DNA of 64,000 nt, taken from positions 1,127,001-1,191,000 of the forward strand of contig NZ_CP019389.1 in assembly GCF_001971785.1 (NCBI RefSeq), written 5' to 3'. Source of the stretch: Seonamhaeicola sp. S2-3 (GTDB lineage Bacteria; Bacteroidota; Bacteroidia; Flavobacteriales; Flavobacteriaceae). The position numbers and the translations under genes were made by a program. Of this stretch, positions 5,476-46,786 are shown in pieces (position 1 is the stretch's first letter; the number at the start of each line of letters is the position of its first letter). The notes below the pieces were generated by a model. The model was not told the origin of the DNA and made no database searches. It was given only the letters and a program-made list of their open reading frames with translations.

Positions 5476-6150
5476 TTAATGGTGATTAAAATAATGATAA
5501 ACGGCTACAATAATAAAGCCTAATGGAATAACAACAGAATAAATAACAGCAAGTTTTTTATAGAATTGTTTTCTAATTGCTGAAACTCCCATTGATTGAA
5601 ATGCCGAAGTAAACCCGTGCAACAAATGCAATGCTAATAAAATAAAAGCCACTACGTAAGCACCAACCCTAATTGGGCTTACAAACTTGTGTTGCAACTC
5701 GGTGAAGTACCTAAACTCTCCGTTGTGCATTCCGGTCATATCGCCTTGAATGTATTTTACATTTATTTCTGGAATCCAGAAATCAATAAAATGCAATACT
5801 AAAAAGGCTAGTATTACCAATCCGCTATAAATCATGTTTCTACTCATCCAAGTAGAATTTGCTGCGCCATTGTTTTTTGCATACGAAACACCTAATGCTT
5901 TTCTATTTCTTAGCTCTAAAACAAAACCCATTACAAAATGAAAAACAACCCCGAAAATAAGCACAGGTTGCAACGCAAACTGAACTAGTGGATTGGTTCC
6001 CATAAAGTGAGACAACTGGTTAAATAAATCTTCACTAAAAACTGAAGTAATGTTGACTGCTAAATGAATAATTAGGAAAAACATAAGGAAGAATGCAGAA
6101 AGCGCCATGGCTACTTTTCTTCCAATCGAAGATTTTAAAAATCCGCTCAT
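5476..6150 (-). CDS. sdhC: Succinate dehydrogenase cytochrome b subunit (type B)
   Basis: Membrane anchor of complex II (224 aa). Five hydrophobic segments are visible, at about residues 14-35, 55-78, 107-128, 160-182 and 199-220. Histidines inside them (for example IIHLAV, VFHFVM, VLHFID and ALHLLHG) are candidates for the two haem b groups of single-subunit type B anchors. It hands electrons to or from menaquinone. First gene of the operon; the promoter and an FNR-like palindrome lie upstream. Confidence 0.93.
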   Translation of the reverse strand: MSGFLKSSIGRKVAMALSAFFLMFFLIIHLAVNITSVFSEDLFNQLSHFMGTNPLVQFALQPVLIFGVVFHFVMGFVLELRNRKALGVSYAKNNGAANSTWMSRNMIYSGLVILAFLVLHFIDFWIPEINVKYIQGDMTGMHNGEFRYFTELQHKFVSPIRVGAYVVAFILLALHLLHGFTSAFQSMGVSAIRKQFYKKLAVIYSVVIPLGFIIVAVYHYFNHH

Positions 6151-11849: not shown

Positions 11850-12629
11850 ATGATTTTAGAGTACAAAGGCACTAATATTTTTTATACAGACACGGGTAAA
11901 GGTACTGCTGTTGTTTTACTGCATGGCTTTTTAGAAAGCTCCAAAATTTGGGATTCGTTTATACCAAAGCTTTCAAAAAAAAATAGAGTTATTTGCATAG
12001 ATCTTTTAGGCCATGGTAAAACAGGTTGTTTAGGCTATATACATTCTATGGAACTCATGGCAGAAGCTGTAGATGCTGTTCTTAAACATTTAAGAATTAG
12101 AAAATCCATTTTTATTGGTCATTCTATGGGTGGTTATGTAGCGCTTGCTTTTGCAGAAAAAAAACCAGACAATGTAAAAGGTTTATGCTTAATGAATTCT
12201 ACCGCTAGTGCTGATACTCCAGAGAAAAGGAAAAATAGAGAAAGAGGCATACAAGCTGTAAAACAAAACCACAAAACATTTATTAGAATTGCTATTTCTA
12301 ACCTGTTCACACCTAAAAATCGAACTATTTTTAAAAACGAAATAGAAGATTTAGTTGATAATTGTTTACAAACCCCTTTACAAGGTATTGTAGCAGCGTT
12401 AGAAGGCATGAAAATTAGAGACGACCGCGAAGTTCTACTTCACTTTTCACCTTATAAAAAAATGATGATTATAGGGAAAAATGATCCTGCTTTAGATTAT
12501 AATCAACTAATTACTCAAACAGAAAACACCGAAGTAAAAATAGTGGAATTTGAAGGCGGCCATATGAGTTTTATAGAAAATAAAGAGGAATTACTAAGTT
12601 CTTTAATGCATTTCGTCGAATTTATTTAA
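11850..12629 (+). CDS. Alpha/beta hydrolase
   Basis: A cytosolic alpha/beta-fold hydrolase of 259 aa. The oxyanion motif LLHGFLES is near residue 23. The nucleophile elbow GHSMGG is at about residue 90. The likely acid is in GKNDPALD and the catalytic histidine in EGGHMSFIE near the C terminus. The set fits small-molecule esterases, lactonases or MenH-like enzymes, but the substrate cannot be told. No men genes lie nearby. It lacks a signal peptide. Confidence 0.8.
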   Translation: MILEYKGTNIFYTDTGKGTAVVLLHGFLESSKIWDSFIPKLSKKNRVICIDLLGHGKTGCLGYIHSMELMAEAVDAVLKHLRIRKSIFIGHSMGGYVALAFAEKKPDNVKGLCLMNSTASADTPEKRKNRERGIQAVKQNHKTFIRIAISNLFTPKNRTIFKNEIEDLVDNCLQTPLQGIVAALEGMKIRDDREVLLHFSPYKKMMIIGKNDPALDYNQLITQTENTEVKIVEFEGGHMSFIENKEELLSSLMHFVEFI

Positions 12630-12687
12630 CTTTTTAACGTTTTTTTATATTTTTTTTGTAGGTTTAATCACCCTAAACATTAAAACC

Positions 12688-12954
12688 ATGCAAAAAACTA
12701 CTAACAAACCTACTTTACTTCCTAGAATGTATTGCTCCATTTTTGGACATGATTACAAAATTACCAAAAGAGTAACTTACCACGTAAAAGAGTACACTTG
12801 TTCGCATTGCAAAAAGCAATTAACCACTAATAGTAATGGAGAACTTGTAGAACTTACCCCTAAATACAAAGAAATAAATGCGATATTAGAAAGGGTTCAC
12901 AATTCTAAAGTTGAACGTTTAAAGGAAAAACCTGTTCTTTCATCGATTTGCTGA
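12688..12954 (+). CDS. Small zinc-ribbon-like protein (paralogue 1)
   Basis: An 88-aa protein with the pattern C-x3-GH near the N terminus (CSIFGHDYKI) and C-x2-C about 25 residues later (CSHCKK), a likely zinc knuckle. The second half (TTNSNGELVELTPKYKEINAILERVH) is charged and helical. It is clearly paralogous to the next gene and more distantly to the one at 14626. The CxxFGH start resembles small DUF1660-type proteins. No function can be given; nucleic-acid binding is possible. Confidence 0.65.
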   Translation: MQKTTNKPTLLPRMYCSIFGHDYKITKRVTYHVKEYTCSHCKKQLTTNSNGELVELTPKYKEINAILERVHNSKVERLKEKPVLSSIC

Positions 12955-13035
12955 TAAATTGTTAATAACTTTTAACTAGTTTTTTTACCTTTAGAAGCGT
13001 CTCTCTTTAAGGTAATTATTAATGGTTGAAATTAT

Positions 13036-13278
13036 ATGAAACGCATTCAGTGTAAAGTATTTGGACACGACATTCAAGTTAGTAAAAACGTAACTTTTCA
13101 TGTCAAAGAGTACAAATGTAAAAATTGTAAAAAAGAATTTACAACTAACAGTTCTGGTAGCTTAGTTGAACTAACACCAAAGTTTAAAGAAATTAACGCT
13201 GTTTTAGAAAATATTCACAAAAGGCGTTTAAAAAGACGACAACGAAACAACCCTGAATTACTAGTTTTTAGTCATTAA
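13036..13278 (+). CDS. Small zinc-ribbon-like protein (paralogue 2)
   Basis: An 80-aa paralogue of the preceding gene. It shares CKVFGHDIQ, HVKEYKCKNCKKEFTTNSSG and SLVELTPKFKEINAVLE with it, and ends in a basic tail (KRRLKRRQRNN). The four-Cys/His pattern is kept. Its end overlaps the convergent thiL gene by 11 nt. It probably arose by tandem duplication. The basic tail would suit binding to nucleic acid, which is inference only. Confidence 0.65.
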   Translation: MKRIQCKVFGHDIQVSKNVTFHVKEYKCKNCKKEFTTNSSGSLVELTPKFKEINAVLENIHKRRLKRRQRNNPELLVFSH

Positions 13279-14314
13279 AATTTTTCCACCCTTGTGCTTT
13301 AAGTGCTATTTTAGTATCTGCTCTAGTTACTAAGTGCATGCCTGCTTCTTTTTCTCTTATATAACCTATTACGGTTAAGCTTGGATTTGCTTTTATTTTA
13401 GGATAATCTTTTTGAGCTATAGTAAACAACAATTCATAATCTTCTCCCCCATTTAACGCTACAGTAGTACTATCTATATTAAATTCTTCACAAGTTGAAA
13501 TAACTTGAGGGTCTAACGGAATTTTATTTTCATACAAATCGCAACCCACATTGCTTTGTTTACAAATATGAATTATCTCTGAAGAAAGACCATCACTAAT
13601 ATCAATCATGGCGGTGGGCTTCACATCTAAATCTTTTAATAATTTAACTATATCCTTTCTTGCTTCTGGCTTTAATTGGCGCTCTACAATGTAAGTGTAC
13701 GGTTCTAAATCTGGTTGGTTATTTGGGTTTACTTTAAAAACTTCCTTTTCTCTTTCTAAAACCTGTAACCCCATATAAGCACCGCCTAAATCTCCAGAAA
13801 CAACTAGTAAATCATTAACTTGCGCACCACTTCTGTAAACTTCATTATTTGCTTCAACTTCACCAATAGCAGTAACTGATATTAATAACCCAGAGGTAGA
13901 AGATGTAGTATCACCACCAACAACATCAATATTATAAATTCTTGATGCTGTTTCTATACCTGCATATAACGCTTCTAAAGCTTCTAAAGGAAATCTATTA
14001 GAAACTGCTATAGAAACCGTTACTTGAGTTGCATTAGCATTCATTGCATATACATCAGATAAATTTACTATTACCGCCTTATACCCTAGGTGCTTTAAAG
14101 GCATGTAACTTAAATCAAAATGAACACCTTCTACAAGAAAATCGGTTGTTACAACTATTTTATTTTTTTTAAAATCTAAAACAGCCGCATCATCTCCAAT
14201 ACTTTTAACGGTTGATGATTGTTTAATTTTAAAATTCTTGGTTAAATGGTCTATCAATCCAAATTCACCTAAATCACTTAACGGAGTTCTTTGTTGGTTT
14301 TTATCTTCTATCAT
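13268..14314 (-). CDS. thiL: Thiamine-monophosphate kinase
   Basis: Makes thiamine diphosphate from thiamine monophosphate with ATP, the last step of cofactor synthesis (348 aa). Motifs of the ThiL/PurM fold are present: IGDDAAVLD near residue 41, TTDFLVEGVHFD, VVGGDTTSS, and the C-terminal DISDGLSSEI and NGGEDYELLFT. No other thi gene or TPP riboswitch is seen nearby. The supply of TPP is relevant to the TPP-dependent SucA and Dxs encoded in the same window. Confidence 0.93.
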   Translation of the reverse strand: MIEDKNQQRTPLSDLGEFGLIDHLTKNFKIKQSSTVKSIGDDAAVLDFKKNKIVVTTDFLVEGVHFDLSYMPLKHLGYKAVIVNLSDVYAMNANATQVTVSIAVSNRFPLEALEALYAGIETASRIYNIDVVGGDTTSSTSGLLISVTAIGEVEANNEVYRSGAQVNDLLVVSGDLGGAYMGLQVLEREKEVFKVNPNNQPDLEPYTYIVERQLKPEARKDIVKLLKDLDVKPTAMIDISDGLSSEIIHICKQSNVGCDLYENKIPLDPQVISTCEEFNIDSTTVALNGGEDYELLFTIAQKDYPKIKANPSLTVIGYIREKEAGMHLVTRADTKIALKAQGWKNFND

Positions 14315-38471: not shown

Positions 38472-38903
38472 TCATAGAGGAAGAAATGAATTACCTTCAT
38501 TGACATCAGATGCCAATTCTTTAATAGTTATATTTTTAAGTTTATTTAAAATATTATTTCTAGAAGCACTTAGTACATTGTGCAACGGACAAGGGGTTTC
38601 TTCATGACATTTTTTTAAACTTAACATACAAGAATTAAGCTTTTCTTCGCCATCAATTACATAAATAATATTTATTACAGATTTGTTCAAATTTGCTTCA
38701 CTTAAATAAAACCCTCCCTTAGGCCCTCTAACTGATGACACTAGGTTTTCTCTAACCAACTGCTGAAGCAATTTAGCTATATAAGCCAAAGGCACGTTGA
38801 TTGGATTTGCAATATCCTTAACCATTACCTTGTTTTTTTCACTAGCATGTAATGCTAAAAACAACACAGCTTTAATGGCGTATTTTGATGAATTTGAAAA
38901 CAT
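38472..38903 (-). CDS. Rrf2-family regulator with three cysteines
   Basis: A 143-aa winged-helix regulator. The helix-turn-helix lies at about residues 28-50 (VKDIANPINVPLAYIAKLLQQLV), followed by the wing VRGPKGGFYLS. Cysteines C92, C99 and C105 stand where IscR and NsrR bind an Fe-S cluster. The divergent nos genes and the ric gene at the end of that cluster make an NO- or redox-sensing, NsrR-like role likely, but the target is not shown. It shares the FNR-like palindrome region with the nos promoter. Confidence 0.8.
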   Translation of the reverse strand: MFSNSSKYAIKAVLFLALHASEKNKVMVKDIANPINVPLAYIAKLLQQLVRENLVSSVRGPKGGFYLSEANLNKSVINIIYVIDGEEKLNSCMLSLKKCHEETPCPLHNVLSASRNNILNKLKNITIKELASDVNEGNSFLPL

Positions 38904-38922: not shown

Positions 38923-38997
38923 CAAATTTAAAGAAGATATAATTATCTTAAATATGATTTTTATCATATTTTTTTGTGTGTTTACTACATACTTTTG
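38923..38997. promoter_or_regulatory. Divergent rrf2/nos promoter region with central FNR-like palindrome
   Basis: The palindrome AATATGATTTTTATCATATT (38951-38970) has a TGAT-N4-ATCA core. On the plus strand TACTTTTG (38990-38997) is the -7 box of the nos genes. On the minus strand TAAATTTG (38930-38923) is the -7 box of rrf2. The palindrome centre is about 41 nt from both expected start points, the class II activator position. Neither promoter has a TTG at the -33 position. Confidence 0.65.
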
Positions 38998-39019: not shown

Positions 39020-39523
39020 ATGAAAACAACACTAAAATTAATGACCATCTTATTAACTGCAATATTAATGAATTGTGGTGGTAAAGAAGAAAAAAAGAAA
39101 GAAGGTTTCAGTTATGAAAAAAAAGAAACCACTGTGAAAAAAGAAGTGAAAAAAGACGCAACCATACCCGCTTCTAAACAAGTAGATTTAACTAATAAAG
39201 GTATAGGCCCAATTAAATCGCTTTCATTACCAGAGAGTATAGATGAAACTATGGCCGCTCATGGCGCTGATGTTTATAAAAAAATGTGCACTGCATGTCA
39301 TAGACCAAATAAAAAGTTTATTGGTCCAGCACCAGCAGGTATTTTAGAACGTAGATCTCCTGAATGGATAATGAACATGATTTTGAACCCAGATGAAATG
39401 ACTCAAAAAGACCCATTAGCTAAGGCTTTATTAATGGAGTTTAACGGTTCTCCTATGGCAAATCAAAATCTACCTGAAGAAGATGCAAGAGCCGTTCTTG
39501 AATATTTTAGAACATTAAAATAA
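39020..39523 (+). CDS. Monohaem c-type cytochrome lipoprotein of the nos cluster
   Basis: A 167-aa envelope cytochrome. The signal ends in a lipobox with C19 (AILMNC), then comes a long lysine/glutamate-rich linker (residues 22-48). The haem site CTACH is at 90-94, and the Met in SPMANQNLPEEDARAVLEYF is the likely axial ligand. As first gene before nosZ it is a good candidate for the electron donor to N2O reductase. The charged linker would allow the haem domain to reach its partner from the membrane. Confidence 0.88.
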   Translation: MKTTLKLMTILLTAILMNCGGKEEKKKEGFSYEKKETTVKKEVKKDATIPASKQVDLTNKGIGPIKSLSLPESIDETMAAHGADVYKKMCTACHRPNKKFIGPAPAGILERRSPEWIMNMILNPDEMTQKDPLAKALLMEFNGSPMANQNLPEEDARAVLEYFRTLK

Positions 39524-39648: not shown

Positions 39649-41613
39649 ATGAAAAAAGTATTAAAACCCATTGTAACATTATTAGGTATTCTTGTGGCAT
39701 TTACAAGTTGTAATAATGATTCTAAATCTAACGCCGGAGCTTTATCTAGTAGCGCTGCAGAAAAAGTATATGTAAAACCTGGTGATCATGACGAATTTTA
39801 CGCATTTATATCTGGTGGATTTAGCGGACAACTTTCTGTTTACGGTCTACCTTCTGGACGTTTATTTAAGGTAATTCCTGTATTTTCACAAGATGCCGAA
39901 AAAGCGTGGGGTTACAATGAAGAAACCAAACCCATGTTAAATACCTCGCACGGATTTATTCCTTGGGATGACGCACACCACCCTGACATTTCTCAAACAA
40001 ATGGCGAAATTGATGGGCGTTGGGTATTTATTAACGGTAACAATACACCACGTATTGCAAAAATTGATTTATCTACTTTTGAAACTACCGAAATAATAGA
40101 AGTACCTAATAGTGCAGGAAACCATAGTTCTTCTTTTGTTACAGAAAACACAGAGTATGTAGTGGCGGGAACAAGGTTCTCTATTCCTATTCCTCAAAAA
40201 GATATGCCTATTAAAGATTATAAGGGAAACTTTAAAGGAGCTTTAACATTTATTTCTGTAGAGCCAGAACATGGGCATATGGATATAAAATTCCAATTAA
40301 TTATGCCTGGTTTTGATTATGATTTATCGCATCCAGGACGCGGAAAATCACATGGTTGGTTTTTCTTTACAACCTATAATTCTGAAGAAGCCAACACCCT
40401 TTTAGAAGTAAACGCTTCTCAAAACGACAAAGATTTTATTGCTGCTGTTAATTGGAAGAAAATAGAAGAATATGTTAACAATGGTGGCGGTACCATGATG
40501 CCTTCTAAATACGCTCATAATGTTTATGATGAATCTACGCACTCTGCAACCTCTACCATTAAAGAAGAAGTACTTACAGTAAATCCTTTAGATGTTCCAG
40601 GTGCTGTTTACTTATTACCTACTCCAAAATCGCCTCACGGTTGTGATGTAGATCCTTCGGGAGAATACATTGTTGGTAACGGAAAACTTTCGGCTAATTT
40701 AACAGTTCATTCATTTACCAAAATGCTTGATGCCATTGAAAACAAAAAATTTGCTGGTGATGCTTATGGTATTCCTATTATTAACTTTGAAGATGTTTTA
40801 GCTGGCGTTGTAGAACAACCTGGTTTAGGACCTCTGCATACAGAATTTGATGGTAAAGGAAATGCTTATACTACGTTCTTTATTTCTTCAGAAGTTGTAA
40901 AATGGAAATTAGAAACTTGGGAAGTTGTTGATAGACAACCTTGTTACTACTCTGTTGGGCACTTAATGATTCCGGGAGGAAACTCGCAAAAACCTTGGGG
41001 TAAATATGTACTTGCCATGAATAAAATTACTAAAGACCGCTATTTACCAACAGGCCCTGAAGTAACACAATCTGCGCAATTATATGATATTTCTGGCGAT
41101 AAAATGGAATTGCTTTTAGATTTTCCAACAATTGGAGAACCTCATTACGCAGCTGGATGTCCTGCAGATTTAATAAAACCTCGTTCTAAAAAAATATTTA
41201 AATTAGAAGAAAACAATCACCCATATGCAACTAAAAGTGAAGCAGACACCAAAGTTGTTAGAGATGGCAACACTGTACATGTATATATGACCATGATACG
41301 CAGTCACTTCTCTCCTGATAATATTGAAGGCATTAAGGTTGGAGATGAAGTGTACTTCCACGTAACTAATTTAGAGCAAGATTACGATGTACCTCACGGA
41401 GTAAGTATGATTGGAGCCAATACTTCAGAACTACTAATTATGCCAGGGCAAACTGAAACCTTTAAATGGGAACCAAAACAAGTTGGTGTATGGCCATTTT
41501 ATTGTACAGATTTCTGCTCTGCATTACATCAAGAAATGCAAGGATATGTAAGAGTATCTGCTGCCAACGCAAACACACCATTACGTTGGTCTCTTGGTGA
41601 AGACATAGAGTAA
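39649..41613 (+). CDS. nosZ: Nitrous oxide reductase, clade II (Sec-exported lipoprotein type)
   Basis: Copper enzyme that reduces N2O to N2 (654 aa). The signal lacks a twin-arginine motif and ends in a lipobox at C21 (LVAFTSC), typical of clade II. CuZ-region histidines are seen in DDAHHPD, GKSHGW, PKSPHGCDVDP, GPLHTEFDG and EPHYAAG. The C-terminal CuA domain carries VPHGVSMI and CTDFCSALHQEMQGY, the clade II form of the CuA loop. It follows the cytochrome gene; two hairpins follow the stop. Confidence 0.96.
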   Translation: MKKVLKPIVTLLGILVAFTSCNNDSKSNAGALSSSAAEKVYVKPGDHDEFYAFISGGFSGQLSVYGLPSGRLFKVIPVFSQDAEKAWGYNEETKPMLNTSHGFIPWDDAHHPDISQTNGEIDGRWVFINGNNTPRIAKIDLSTFETTEIIEVPNSAGNHSSSFVTENTEYVVAGTRFSIPIPQKDMPIKDYKGNFKGALTFISVEPEHGHMDIKFQLIMPGFDYDLSHPGRGKSHGWFFFTTYNSEEANTLLEVNASQNDKDFIAAVNWKKIEEYVNNGGGTMMPSKYAHNVYDESTHSATSTIKEEVLTVNPLDVPGAVYLLPTPKSPHGCDVDPSGEYIVGNGKLSANLTVHSFTKMLDAIENKKFAGDAYGIPIINFEDVLAGVVEQPGLGPLHTEFDGKGNAYTTFFISSEVVKWKLETWEVVDRQPCYYSVGHLMIPGGNSQKPWGKYVLAMNKITKDRYLPTGPEVTQSAQLYDISGDKMELLLDFPTIGEPHYAAGCPADLIKPRSKKIFKLEENNHPYATKSEADTKVVRDGNTVHVYMTMIRSHFSPDNIEGIKVGDEVYFHVTNLEQDYDVPHGVSMIGANTSELLIMPGQTETFKWEPKQVGVWPFYCTDFCSALHQEMQGYVRVSAANANTPLRWSLGEDIE

Positions 41614-42360: not shown

Positions 42361-42798
42361 ATGCAAACACTAAAACTCTTTTCAATATCATTACTATTAT
42401 TTACAGTTTTTGGTTGTAATGTTTCTCCTAAACCTATTGATTACGGAAACGATGGTTGCCATTTCTGTAAAATGACTATTGTAGATAAAGTTCATGCAGC
42501 AGAAATAGTTACAAAAAAAGGGAAAGTTTACAAGTTTGATGCTACAGAATGTATGATACATTTTATGAAAGAATTTGATACTTCTGAAATTGCACTCTAC
42601 TTATCAAACAATTACCTAGAGCCAGAAACGCTTATTGATGCTACAAATGCAACTTTTTTAATAAGTAAAAATGTACCAAGTCCTATGGGAGCTTTTCTTT
42701 CTGCTTTCAAAACCAAAGAAGATGCTGCAAAAATTAAAGCAGACAAAGGAGGTAAACTTTACAGTTGGGAAGCGTTGTTAACTAAATTTCAAAATTAA
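42361..42798 (+). CDS. nosL: Copper chaperone NosL (lipoprotein)
   Basis: A 145-aa lipoprotein that delivers Cu(I) to apo-NosZ. The signal ends in a lipobox (FTVFGC, about C19). The metal-binding motif CHFCKMTI is at about 33-40, with further conserved FDATECMIHFM and SPMGAFLSAF. It is encoded between two membrane-protein genes of the cluster and has the usual NosL length. Confidence 0.92.
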   Translation: MQTLKLFSISLLLFTVFGCNVSPKPIDYGNDGCHFCKMTIVDKVHAAEIVTKKGKVYKFDATECMIHFMKEFDTSEIALYLSNNYLEPETLIDATNATFLISKNVPSPMGAFLSAFKTKEDAAKIKADKGGKLYSWEALLTKFQN

Positions 42799-42812: not shown

Positions 42813-43250
42813 ATGATACTCAAATTAGTTGTTTTTATTCATATCCTTGCCGCAACAATTTGGACGGGTGGACATCTTATTTTAACCTTAACTTTTTTAC
42901 CTAAGGCTTTACGGAAAAATGACTTTAATATTATAGAATCTTTTGAAAGTAAATATGAAAAAATTGGTATTCCCGCATTACTAACATTAGTAGTTTCTGG
43001 AGTTTATATGGCAACTCAATATGCAGAAGATGGTTTTCTTACTTTTAATTTTTCAAATCATTTTAACAAACATATTTACATTAAACTAATATTGCTGTTA
43101 TGCACCGTAATTCTTGCAGTGCATGCAAGATTTTTTTTAATACCAAAACGCGCTTTAAAACCATTAGCGCTTCATATAATTTCCGTAACAATTGTTTCTG
43201 TGCTATTTGTATTAGTTGGTTTTAGTGCCAGATCTGGAGGATTATTATGA
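42813..43250 (+). CDS. CopD-like four-helix membrane protein
   Basis: A 145-aa inner-membrane protein. Helices are at about residues 3-24, 50-68, 90-107 and 120-140. Histidines in FIHILAATIWTGGHLIL at the N terminus and AVHARFFLIP resemble those of CopD/YcnJ copper-import proteins. In the nos cluster it could help bring copper to NosZ maturation. Its stop overlaps the ATG of nosD by 4 nt, so the two are translationally coupled. Confidence 0.7.
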   Translation: MILKLVVFIHILAATIWTGGHLILTLTFLPKALRKNDFNIIESFESKYEKIGIPALLTLVVSGVYMATQYAEDGFLTFNFSNHFNKHIYIKLILLLCTVILAVHARFFLIPKRALKPLALHIISVTIVSVLFVLVGFSARSGGLL

Positions 43251-44494
43251 AACTATTAAACTACATATTGTTACTAACTATGTATTTGTGTTATAGCAAC
43301 ACGCTACTACATGCCAAAACAATAACAGTTTGTAATTCTTGCGCTATAAACTCATTAAAAAAAGCTATTAAAACAGCACATGATTTTGATACTATTTCTG
43401 TAAAAAAAGGCACCTACAAAGAATATAATATTGTAATTGATAAACCCTTAACCATAGTTGGTGAAAACTACCCTATTATAGATGGTGAATTAAAAGGAGA
43501 AATTATCACAATTACTTCAAATAATGTAACAGTTGATGGTCTGTTTATAATAAATGTAGGAACAAGTTATACTGAAGATTTTGCAGCTATTAGAGTTCAA
43601 AAAAGCAAATATTTTACAATTAAAAATTTAGTGCTAGAAAAACTCTTTTTTGGCATTTATTTAGAAAAAGCTAATCATGGAAAAGTTTACCATAATAAGA
43701 TAATTGGCGATGCAGTTGAAGAGTATAACTCTGGTAACGGCATTCAACTTTGGTATAGCAACCATATTGAAATAGAGCATAATTATGTTCAAAATGTTAG
43801 AGATGGCATTTATTTAGAGTTTGCTAATAATTGCTTAATTAAAAATAATGTAAGCTCTAATAACCTGCGTTATGGTTTACATTTTATGTTTTCTAATAAC
43901 GATAGTTATCAAGATAATACCTTTGAAAATAACGGAGCAGGTGTTGCTGTTATGTTCTCTAAACATATTAAAATGTACAACAATATTTTTAAAGAAAATT
44001 GGGGTACGGCGTCGTACGGCATGCTATTAAAAGAAATTAACGATGCCGAAATTATTGGCAATACATTTAATGAAAACACCATAGGCATTAATATTGAAGG
44101 CTCTAACCGTATTATTTATAAAAACAACAATTTTATTAATAATGGGTGGGCTATAAAAGTAAGAGGCGCCTGCTATACTAACAGTTTTTTAGAAAATAAT
44201 TTTTTGTATAACTCTTTTGATATTGCGTATAACAGCAAAGTAAATGATAATATTTTCGATAAAAATTATTGGAGCAGTTACACGGGTTACGATTTAAATA
44301 AAGATGGTATTGGCGATGTACCATATCGCCCTGTAAAACTATTTTCTTATGTAGTAAACCGCACACCAGAAACCATTATTTTATTGCGCAGTTTATTTAT
44401 AGATATTATTGATTTTTCAGAAAAAGTATCTCCTGTTTTTACGCCCAATAACCTATTAGACAACAACCCAGCAACAAAAAAAATAACATGGTAA
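43247..44494 (+). CDS. nosD: Periplasmic copper-processing protein NosD
   Basis: A 415-aa exported parallel beta-helix protein needed to build the CuZ centre with the NosFY ABC transporter. The signal peptide is at about 1-24. Repeated right-handed helix turns (NHIEIEHNYVQNVRDGIYLEF, NNCLIKNNVSSNNLRYGLHF, KHIKMYNNIFKENWG) cover residues 60-340. A C-terminal NYWSSYTGYDLNKDGIGDVPYRP block is typical of NosD. It overlaps both neighbours by a few bases. Confidence 0.93.
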   Translation: MKLLNYILLLTMYLCYSNTLLHAKTITVCNSCAINSLKKAIKTAHDFDTISVKKGTYKEYNIVIDKPLTIVGENYPIIDGELKGEIITITSNNVTVDGLFIINVGTSYTEDFAAIRVQKSKYFTIKNLVLEKLFFGIYLEKANHGKVYHNKIIGDAVEEYNSGNGIQLWYSNHIEIEHNYVQNVRDGIYLEFANNCLIKNNVSSNNLRYGLHFMFSNNDSYQDNTFENNGAGVAVMFSKHIKMYNNIFKENWGTASYGMLLKEINDAEIIGNTFNENTIGINIEGSNRIIYKNNNFINNGWAIKVRGACYTNSFLENNFLYNSFDIAYNSKVNDNIFDKNYWSSYTGYDLNKDGIGDVPYRPVKLFSYVVNRTPETIILLRSLFIDIIDFSEKVSPVFTPNNLLDNNPATKKITW

Positions 44495-45970: not shown

Positions 45971-46015
45971 CGCAAAAAAATAACAAATGTCATGTTTTTA
46001 TTTCATTAAACTTAC

Positions 46016-46031
46016 TACCTTTGATATCAAA
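46016..46031 (+). promoter_or_regulatory. Promoter of ric with overlapping palindrome
   Basis: TACCTTTG (46016-46023) is a consensus -7 box. The perfect palindrome TTTGATATCAAA (46020-46031) covers its end and the expected start point, a repressor-like position. In the leader, AAAAGA (46036-46041) and TCTTTT (46050-46055) form another inverted repeat. Confidence 0.45.
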
Positions 46032-46069
46032 ATAAAAAAGATAAAAATGTCTTTTATTAAATTAAAACT

Positions 46070-46786
46070 ATGAAAACAATCGAAAATAAAACAGTTGCAG
46101 AAGTAGTAGCAGAAAATATTAAAACCGCTCATGTATTTAAAAAACACGGCATAGACTTTTGTTGTGGTGGCGGTATAACCATTGAAAAAGCTTGCGAAAA
46201 AAAACAACTAGATTATCAAACACTTAAAAACGAACTCTTACAAGTAGATGATGCCCCAAAATCTTATAATTACAACTCATGGAAATTAGACTTTTTAATA
46301 GATCATATTATCAACGTACATCATGCTTATGTAGAAGAATCTATACCTTTAATTTTACAATACTCTAACAAAGTAGCCAAAGTTCATGGGCATCATTACA
46401 CCGAAGTAATTGAAATTAACAAACTCTTTACTGAAGTTGCTAATGAGTTGGCAGCACACTTAAAAAAAGAAGAAATCATACTATTTCCATACATTAAAAA
46501 ATTATTAAAATATAAAAATGAAGATTTAGAGTTAACAAAACCTCCTTTTGAAACCGTTAATAATCCTATAAAAATGATGGAAGAGGAGCATGAAACAGCT
46601 GGCAATATTTTTAAAAAAATAGCCAAATTAACTAACAATTATACACCTCCAGAAGGGGCTTGTAACACTTTTAAAGCGCTTTACGCTAAACTAGATGAAT
46701 TTGAACAAGATTTGCACCAACATATTCATTTAGAAAATAATATTTTACACCCTAAGGCTAAAAAATTAGAACAAAGCTTTAGCTAA
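46070..46786 (+). CDS. ric: Iron-sulfur cluster repair di-iron protein (RIC/ScdA/YtfE family)
   Basis: Restores Fe-S clusters damaged by NO or oxidants and may handle NO itself (238 aa). The N-terminal ScdA_N domain has CCGGG near residue 27 (DFCCGGGI). The hemerythrin-like di-iron domain from residue 75 on shows the ligands HIINVHHAYVEE, HGHHYTEVIE, HLKKEEIILFP, EEEHETAG and HQHIHLENNILHP. It follows the nos genes behind its own promoter, in keeping with nitrosative stress during N-oxide respiration. Confidence 0.94.
   Translation: MKTIENKTVAEVVAENIKTAHVFKKHGIDFCCGGGITIEKACEKKQLDYQTLKNELLQVDDAPKSYNYNSWKLDFLIDHIINVHHAYVEESIPLILQYSNKVAKVHGHHYTEVIEINKLFTEVANELAAHLKKEEIILFPYIKKLLKYKNEDLELTKPPFETVNNPIKMMEEEHETAGNIFKKIAKLTNNYTPPEGACNTFKALYAKLDEFEQDLHQHIHLENNILHPKAKKLEQSFS

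Follow-up and report, generated by a model that had tools for sequence, protein, structure and literature searches.

It has been reported that hcp and ytfE/dnrN in enterobacteria are under the double control of FNR and NsrR, and that in Neisseria NsrR controls nirK and norB (available part of PMC1274295). For the clade II nos clusters of Bacteroidetes/Flavobacteriales scaffolds, the position of an rrf2 gene beside nosZ and a gene for a c-type cytochrome has already been described, in a report whose accessible text also refers to the control of clade II NosZ outside Proteobacteria as poorly known (PMC6264515). According to the accessible part of a third study, a Flavobacterium that carries nothing but a nos cluster consumes N2O in a strongly oxygen-dependent way (PMC9697520). 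Through their clade II NosZ, marine flavobacteria act as a sink for N2O, a greenhouse gas.

In this study, we analysed a stretch of 64,000 nucleotides from Seonamhaeicola sp. S2-3, referred to here as the window, in which two palindromes lie between an rrf2 gene and a divergent nos cluster. As far as the available part of the earlier description goes, the locus has in common with the FNR-NsrR systems of enterobacteria and Neisseria that an FNR-type low-oxygen site and an apparent operator of a Rrf2-family protein for NO or nitrite meet at one promoter, and that RIC (dnrN/ytfE) and nirK are among the targets in both (PMC1274295). On the same basis the two differ in that the operator here reads AAGAY-N6-RTCTT and that of NsrR gATGyAT-(N5)-ATrCATc, in that the activator box reads TATGAY-N4-RTCATA and not TTGATnnnnATCAA, in that the promoters here are of the Bacteroidota type and in that the operator lies upstream at nos, whereas the second motif of enterobacterial hcp is downstream of the FNR site (PMC1274295). 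Compared with the earlier report on rrf2 and nosZ, a binding site, an FNR-like site and a promoter layout are given here, none of which was found in the accessible part of that report (PMC6264515), and a literature search of mostly non-subscription sources found no published report of either site in Flavobacteriaceae. As far as the literature was searched, both motifs are new, and so are the composite element of fixed geometry that they form and the two places taken by the operator; the regulatory logic itself is known. Both motifs could be used to predict regulons (hemN, pflB, nirK, norC, RIC and nos) in Bacteroidota genomes.

Palindrome 1 and its distance to the nos promoter

The following features of the window are needed for the description of the locus:

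38472 to 38903, minus strand: rrf2, a regulator of the Rrf2 superfamily of 143 aa with the pattern C92-X6-C99-X5-C105-X2-H108 (TIGR00738, 105.5 bits against a cut-off of 73.3; PF02082)
38923 to 38930, minus strand (read from 38930 to 38923): putative rrf2 -7 box TAAATTTG, 24 nt past the TGAT-N4-ATCA core of palindrome 1
38934 to 38949, unstranded: palindrome 2, AAGATATAATTATCTT, AAGAY-N6-RTCTT, probable Rrf2 operator with its centre at 38941.5, at a distance of 19 bp to that of palindrome 1
38951 to 38970, unstranded: palindrome 1, AATATGATTTTTATCATATT, a CRP/FNR-type site TATGAT-N4-ATCATA in the window sequence, centre 38960.5
38990 to 38997, plus strand: putative nos -7 box TACTTTTG, 23 nt past the TGAT-N4-ATCA core
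39020 to 39523, plus strand: first nos gene, a c-type cytochrome lipoprotein of 167 aa (PF00034), with a homologue in 77 of 80 loci
39649 to 41613, plus strand: nosZ, a Sec-dependent (clade II type) nitrous-oxide reductase (TIGR04246, 945.6 bits)
42361 to 42798, plus strand: nosL (PF05573)
43247 to 44494, plus strand: nosD (TIGR04247, 443.7 bits)
46070 to 46786, plus strand: iron-sulfur cluster repair protein of the RIC/YtfE/ScdA type (TIGR03652, 243.9 bits against a cut-off of 204.7)

The arms of palindrome 1 are perfectly complementary over 8 bp, or over 9 bp when the flanking A and T are counted; however the TTTT spacer is not complementary to itself, so that the wording of the preliminary description, in which a perfect palindrome of 20 nt was proposed, was slightly loose. 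The -7 boxes were said there to lie 37-38 nt on either side; the near-symmetry is confirmed, but, counted from the centre, the boxes begin at 29 and 30 nt, and the larger figures match their far edges. Bacteroidota promoters have a -7 element with the consensus TAnnTTTG and a TTG at -33, and the claim that the latter is absent in both directions holds, with no TTG found in the window 17-23 nt ahead of either -7 box. Taken by itself, palindrome 1 is not significant: TGAT-N4-ATCA occurs 4 times in the window against 1.30 expected (a count of 4 was obtained in 5 of 100 shuffles), 8 repeats have arms of 8 bp around a spacer of 4 nt (mean of the null 2.95, largest value 9 among 40 nulls), and the whole genome has 5 copies of TATGATN4ATCATA against 3 for the backward control. 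A whole-genome scan allowing two mismatches was uninformative, with 582 forward matches and 617 for the backward control. As these bare-repeat statistics give no support, the case was built on the register of the site to the -7 box and on its conservation.

At class II CRP/FNR promoters of Escherichia coli the activator is located about 41 bp before the start of transcription, at a place fixed to the -10/-7 element. Here the spacing was measured to the Bacteroidota -7 box, and, unlike in the E. coli case, there are two divergent promoters with the same site facing both. In the nosZ loci of named flavobacterial relatives (80 loci; 1,051,241 bases, 1.05 Mb), TGAY-N4-RTCA is followed by TAnnTTTG within 10-40 nt in 127 pairs, and a single distance to the promoter element, as in class II promoters, prevails, with 99 pairs at exactly 23 nt, 14 at 24 nt and 14 spread over eight other spacings; three controls with scrambled half-sites gave 2, 0 and 0 pairs in the same range. 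In the genome of Seonamhaeicola sp. S2-3 itself, a search for TGATN4RTCA and a box with a spacer of 18-28 nt found 8 matches, six of them at 23 nt, the rrf2 promoter at 24 and one at 18, against 1 match for the backward control, and all five exact genomic copies of TATGATN4ATCATA are accompanied on one side, in the same register, by a sequence that agrees with the -7 box in at least 5 of 6 letters. With a slightly relaxed box, 75 of the 80 loci were found to have an in-register site no further than 2.3 kb upstream of nosZ. Three of the five misses (L053, L083 and L091) are cut contigs with at most 214 bases upstream, and L066 and L081 are true misses.

Base preferences were determined in 68 loci, that is in 67 relatives and the window, the 13 others of the 80 (L053, L063, L066, L076, L081, L082, L083, L085, L088, L091, L093, L095 and L098) having no cytochrome match, a different first gene or a cytochrome gene that is internal to an operon. 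Seven of these 13 (L063, L082, L085, L088, L093, L095 and L098) have an in-register site before a first gene of the fasciclin type, which Pfam names as such in L063 only. In none of the 68 promoters examined does a TTG precede the nos -7 box at 17-23 nt, in line with the poor or absent -33/-35 element of class II promoters, T follows RTCA in all 68, and the inner pair of the site is T/A in 40 loci, T/G in 10, C/A in 9, C/G in 8 and G/A in 1; these counts, like those for palindrome 2 below, are anchored on whichever place scored best in a stretch of 220 nt, a choice that biases them towards a positive outcome. The peak in spacer length among the 127 pairs is free of this bias, and in all sets the species are related, so that the counts are not independent. 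With the fixed 23 nt, the lack of a TTG, the presence in 75 of 80 loci and the sharing of the site with hemN and pflB, the proposal of an FNR-like site at a class II-type distance has held up, and there is good support for palindrome 1 as a putative class II CRP/FNR site of the nos promoter. Its centre would be at about -41 only if the start of transcription is about 5 nt past the -7 box. Judged by sequence comparison, palindrome 1 is a real, conserved switch ahead of the N2O reduction genes in marine flavobacteria.

In the preliminary description one site was also thought to drive both nos and rrf2, in an almost symmetric layout that was to be looked for in other Flavobacteriaceae nos loci. 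This can be maintained for the nos side, but the rrf2 side is only partly kept. The rrf2 gene is divergent from the cytochrome gene in 34 of the 80 loci (35 with the window), and 33 loci have a palindrome 1 site without a divergent rrf2. Among the 35, an exact rrf2-side box was found at 24 nt in 12 loci, 23 nt in 2, 29 nt in 4 and 34 nt in 2, with none within 15-39 nt in 15, so that 14 of 35 have it in the 23-24 register. When one deviating letter among the six is allowed, 23 of 35 have a box there (11 at 23 and 12 at 24 nt), and 7 have one at 29 nt. A register at 15 nt, with 14 inexact boxes, was rejected as a promoter, since these boxes fall within palindrome 2 and the T run belonging to it. 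With the register on the rrf2 side so poorly kept, activation in both directions is a credible proposal for the window and for loci closely related to it, and less so elsewhere.

Candidate regulator of palindrome 1

When the genome was searched for CRP/FNR regulators, as had been suggested, four CRP-type genes were found, together with two genes of the Rrf2 type. Two proteins, the second from another locus, need to be considered at this point:

Genome positions 2510546 to 2511223 (16546 to 17223 of L120): FNR-like candidate, adjoining genes for a copper ATPase and ccoNO (cbb3 oxidase)
5443 to 6192 of L124: second FNR-like protein with a CxxCxxxxC pattern, beside a globin gene and molybdenum-cofactor-like genes, present in 8 of 34 nos genomes

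The FNR-like candidate matches PF00027 and PF13545 above the cut-off, which gives it the domains of the CRP/FNR fold, and its best NCBIfam match is Fnr, although at 99.3 bits it remains under the cut-off of 228 of that model. It is present at at least 50% identity in 30 of the 34 nos genomes. Cys4, Cys7, Cys53 and Cys106 are invariant in 31 of 31 sequences; Cys4, Cys7 and Cys106 align with cysteines of FNR, and the third N-terminal cysteine of FNR is missing, with Cys53 invariant instead. This may represent a new ligand set for an oxygen-sensing cluster. The candidate target sites read ATGAY-N4-RTCAT and not TTGATnnnnATCAA, the standard FNR box, in that A rather than T stands before the TGA (TGAY) in 66 of 68 loci, as read at the best-scoring place. 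Taken together, the protein encoded beside the cbb3 oxidase genes is the best candidate for binding palindrome 1 and most likely does so. The suggestion in the preliminary description that the same regulator also senses N-oxides is not borne out, as the CRP-family candidate looks to be of the oxygen type, and an NO or redox signal would more likely enter via the Rrf2 operator.

It is also conceivable, although in our view unlikely, that a different member of the CRP family acts at palindrome 1, be it an NO-sensing protein similar to DNR/NnrR, the L124 protein or a protein that differs from genome to genome. The number of CRP-type genes in the genome would be consistent with this, as would the CxxCxxxxC pattern and neighbouring globin gene of the L124 protein and the finding that four of the 34 nos genomes (L068, L069, L084 and L107) have kept the nos site but lack the FNR-like protein, three of them showing only longer CRP-type frames of 360-385 codons. 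However, the L124 type is confined to 8 of 34 genomes as against 30 for the FNR-like type, and a site common to hemN and pflB fits oxygen better than NO. The longer frames in the three genomes are perhaps a replacement regulator.

Palindrome 2 and the Rrf2 protein

Palindrome 2, which was overlooked in the preliminary description, is located between palindrome 1 and the rrf2 -7 box and ends 3 nt before the latter. When scored over ten letters (A-R-G-A-Y-N6-R-T-C-Y-T, with 9 or 10 taken as a pass), it is present in 66 of the 68 loci, the failures being L048 (score 8) and L071 (score 7), and it passes in 2.1% of random 60-mers from the same loci and in 2.3% of shuffled upstream regions. It is mostly at one offset, which is 21 nt in 56 of the 66 (30 with and 26 without a divergent rrf2). 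The idea that it merely marks a divergent rrf2 gene was rejected, since it was found in 32 of 33 loci without such a gene as well as in 34 of 35 with one. In 31 of the 33 tested genomes without a divergent rrf2, a relative of the Rrf2 protein (35-47% identity, E 4.3e-26 or better) is encoded elsewhere. L071 has neither a passing palindrome 2 nor a close nos-type Rrf2 (best E 7.9e-8), and the metagenome-assembled genome L061 has palindrome 2 and no clear Rrf2 relative; as the first lacks both and the second only the protein, the test for common loss gives one case for and one against. In the genome of Seonamhaeicola sp. S2-3, AAGAYN6RTCTTA has only 11 strand matches, fewer than the 51 of the backward control, and therefore most copies elsewhere are uninformative.

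The Rrf2 protein itself has the features of an iron-sulfur regulator. The residues C92, C99, C105 and H108 are invariant in 35 of 35 aligned proteins and in 47-48 of 48 full rows, so that the three cluster cysteines of NsrR have counterparts (C92, C99 and C105, 35 of 35) and the Cys3-His pattern of IscR is present as well. This ligand pattern is known from E. coli IscR, in which the first spacing is one residue shorter than in the protein described here. The predicted model has a pLDDT of 91.9, and the best Foldseek matches are RsrR (6hsd), IscR (4hf1), CymR (2y75) and NsrR (7b0c). With the equivalog models, the protein scores 47.3 bits for NsrR and 78.3 bits for IscR, under the respective cut-offs of 182 and 207.55, and the candidate operator AAGAY-N6-RTCTT does not match the NsrR operator gATGyAT-(N5)-ATrCATc; the likeness to NsrR in its targets comes from the co-occurrence of sites only, namely 5 RIC and 8 nirK genes of 14 and one norC-norB operon in L039. 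We conclude that palindrome 2 is most likely the operator of a Rrf2 protein of the Fe-S type. An Rrf2 copy outside the 35-row alignment (L037, 12845-13270) has Trp at position 92, which could reflect a broken or altered sensor or an error in the sequence.

The two-site element at other genes and the proposed mechanism

A second place in the window where the two sites are combined is the promoter of the RIC gene:

45981 to 45992, plus strand: imperfect palindrome 1 core TAACAAATGTCA, 23 nt before the RIC -7 box
46016 to 46023, plus strand: putative RIC -7 box TACCTTTG
46038 to 46053, unstranded: palindrome 2 copy AAGATAAAAATGTCTT, the only other exact AAGAYN6RTCTT in the window, past the RIC -7 box but ahead of the ATG of the gene and thus in the position of a repressor

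This arrangement, with palindrome 2 past the -7 box, was found in 14 of 397 family genomes, before 8 nirK genes, 5 RIC genes and an unassigned 418-aa frame, and of these 14 places two had shaped the pattern (RIC in the window, and L171, with a NirK identical to that of L051), so that 12 are new (7 nirK, 4 RIC, 1 other). The backward control gave 0 among the matches listed. The pattern left the upstream half-site free, which is TGAY in 9 of the 14 and TAAC at the 5 RIC places. The upstream arrangement, that is the exact pattern of the composite element at nos, is present in 97 of 397 family genomes, again with 0 for the backward control among the matches listed, and the spread of this fixed element poses the testable question whether oxygen is read via one site and NO or redox state via the other. 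Among about 105 upstream places, 30 were annotated, and these belong to 25 nos cytochrome genes, 2 nirK genes (L188 and L189), 2 copies of a 125-aa gene and a 308-aa frame. In L039 both sites precede a norC-like gene followed by a NorB-like frame (COX1 family), and the norC-like gene of L078 has palindrome 1 only. Palindrome 1 without palindrome 2 is the rule at promoters of the hemN type (7 of 7) and at Usp-like genes (3 of 3); in the genome of Seonamhaeicola sp. S2-3 its in-register targets include nos, hemN (436 bits to its model), pflB, pyruvate phosphate dikinase (5/6 box) and genes without a family match. Palindrome 2 precedes Rrf2 or RIC genes in L043, L053, L101, L107 and L108. This distribution over hemN, Usp-like genes, RIC, nirK, norC and nos links palindrome 1 to low-oxygen genes generally and palindrome 2 to NO-related genes. 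The sites, their fixed spacing, their conservation and their co-occurrence with RIC, nirK and nos are established here.

From these observations we infer which protein acts at which site, where transcription starts, the sign of the effects and the signals. The motifs and their arrangement suggest as the likely mechanism an FNR-type activation at palindrome 1 that is gated by an NsrR-like Rrf2 protein at palindrome 2, and the nos genes probably read both the lack of oxygen and an NO or redox signal. At low oxygen, the FNR-like protein would bind to palindrome 1, some 41 bp ahead of the start of nos transcription, and recruit RNA polymerase to a promoter with a -7 box and without a -33 TTG, and the opposite half of the site could also drive rrf2. 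Rrf2 bound to palindrome 2 would repress its own gene, since from the rrf2 side this site is between the activator and the -7 box. Seen from the nos side it is upstream, at about -60, which is not the usual place for a repressor, and the bound protein would crowd the activator or the alpha subunit of RNA polymerase. Rrf2 would in this way block RIC and nirK from downstream and gate nos from upstream, until an NO or redox signal damages its cluster and the gate is lifted.

The unusual place of palindrome 2 at nos could alternatively mean that Rrf2, while repressing its own gene and RIC, helps nos transcription from upstream of the FNR-type site. IscR is known as a dual regulator and thus provides a precedent, and the predominant 21-nt offset upstream at nos (56 of 66) against a downstream position at RIC and most nirK genes would be in agreement with two different roles. 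The upstream layout of nirK in L188 and L189, however, suggests the same sign in both places, and we consider a helper role improbable, though not negligible. A movable two-site grammar of Flavobacteriaceae would extend the gating mechanism favoured above: the FNR-type site would keep a fixed distance of 23 nt to the -7 box, and the order of denitrification genes would be set by the place of the Rrf2 operator, as a roadblock opened only by NO when downstream (RIC and most nirK) and as a softer gate or helper when upstream (nos). This is a doubtful extension, which we put forward tentatively. If true, the N2O-consuming enzyme would be made at low oxygen before the NO-producing steps, and N2O removal would be an oxygen-first trait in organisms with nos and without full denitrification.

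At class II promoters the alpha subunit of RNA polymerase docks in the place where palindrome 2 is located here, and a distinctly unlikely explanation is that palindrome 2 is an A/T-rich contact for alpha, or the site of another regulator, and not a Rrf2 operator. Palindrome 2 is indeed A/T rich and persists in loci without a divergent rrf2; however, nearly all of the latter genomes have an Rrf2 relative elsewhere, and the GAY-N6-RTC dyad is also found past the -7 box at RIC and nirK, and before the Rrf2 or RIC genes of the five loci named above, where an alpha contact is implausible. That Rrf2 itself binds palindrome 1 without any CRP/FNR protein is highly improbable, because, even though regulators often bind beside their own gene and Rrf2 operators can be A/T-rich palindromes, palindrome 1 and its 23-nt register recur where palindrome 2 is missing, at hemN, pflB and Usp-like genes, and palindrome 1 is present in L071, in the genome of which no close Rrf2 of the nos type was found. 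With Rrf2 gating an FNR-type activator as the preferred mechanism, some further places with one or both sites are described below.

The NirK of L051 (354.8 bits to its model; 12165-13622), which is under both sites, has a C-terminal cytochrome c domain. The two-site element before the 418-aa frame (L179, at about 1500) and the 308-aa frame (L197, similar by eye to quinolinate synthase) could reflect unexpected targets or chance. Biotin carboxylase was rejected as the target of a site at 1412087, as this site is beyond the 3' end of its gene and faces a 149-aa frame about 240 nt on. For a 125-aa gene in L128 (5949-6326), which has a copy of palindrome 2 at 5770, 179 nt ahead, a by-eye call as truncated globin was not upheld by any Pfam or NCBIfam match, and the gene was left out of the evidence. 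A gene of 125-129 aa near nos, for which Pfam gave no match, has the same upstream two-site element in L055 (823-1197), L059, L075, L212 and L213. Lastly, an exact palindrome 1 with an in-register -7-like box was found before two candidate new low-oxygen genes, at 4575-6377 of L122, with a product without Pfam match, and at 4316-6166 of L123, the product of which contains a CBS domain.
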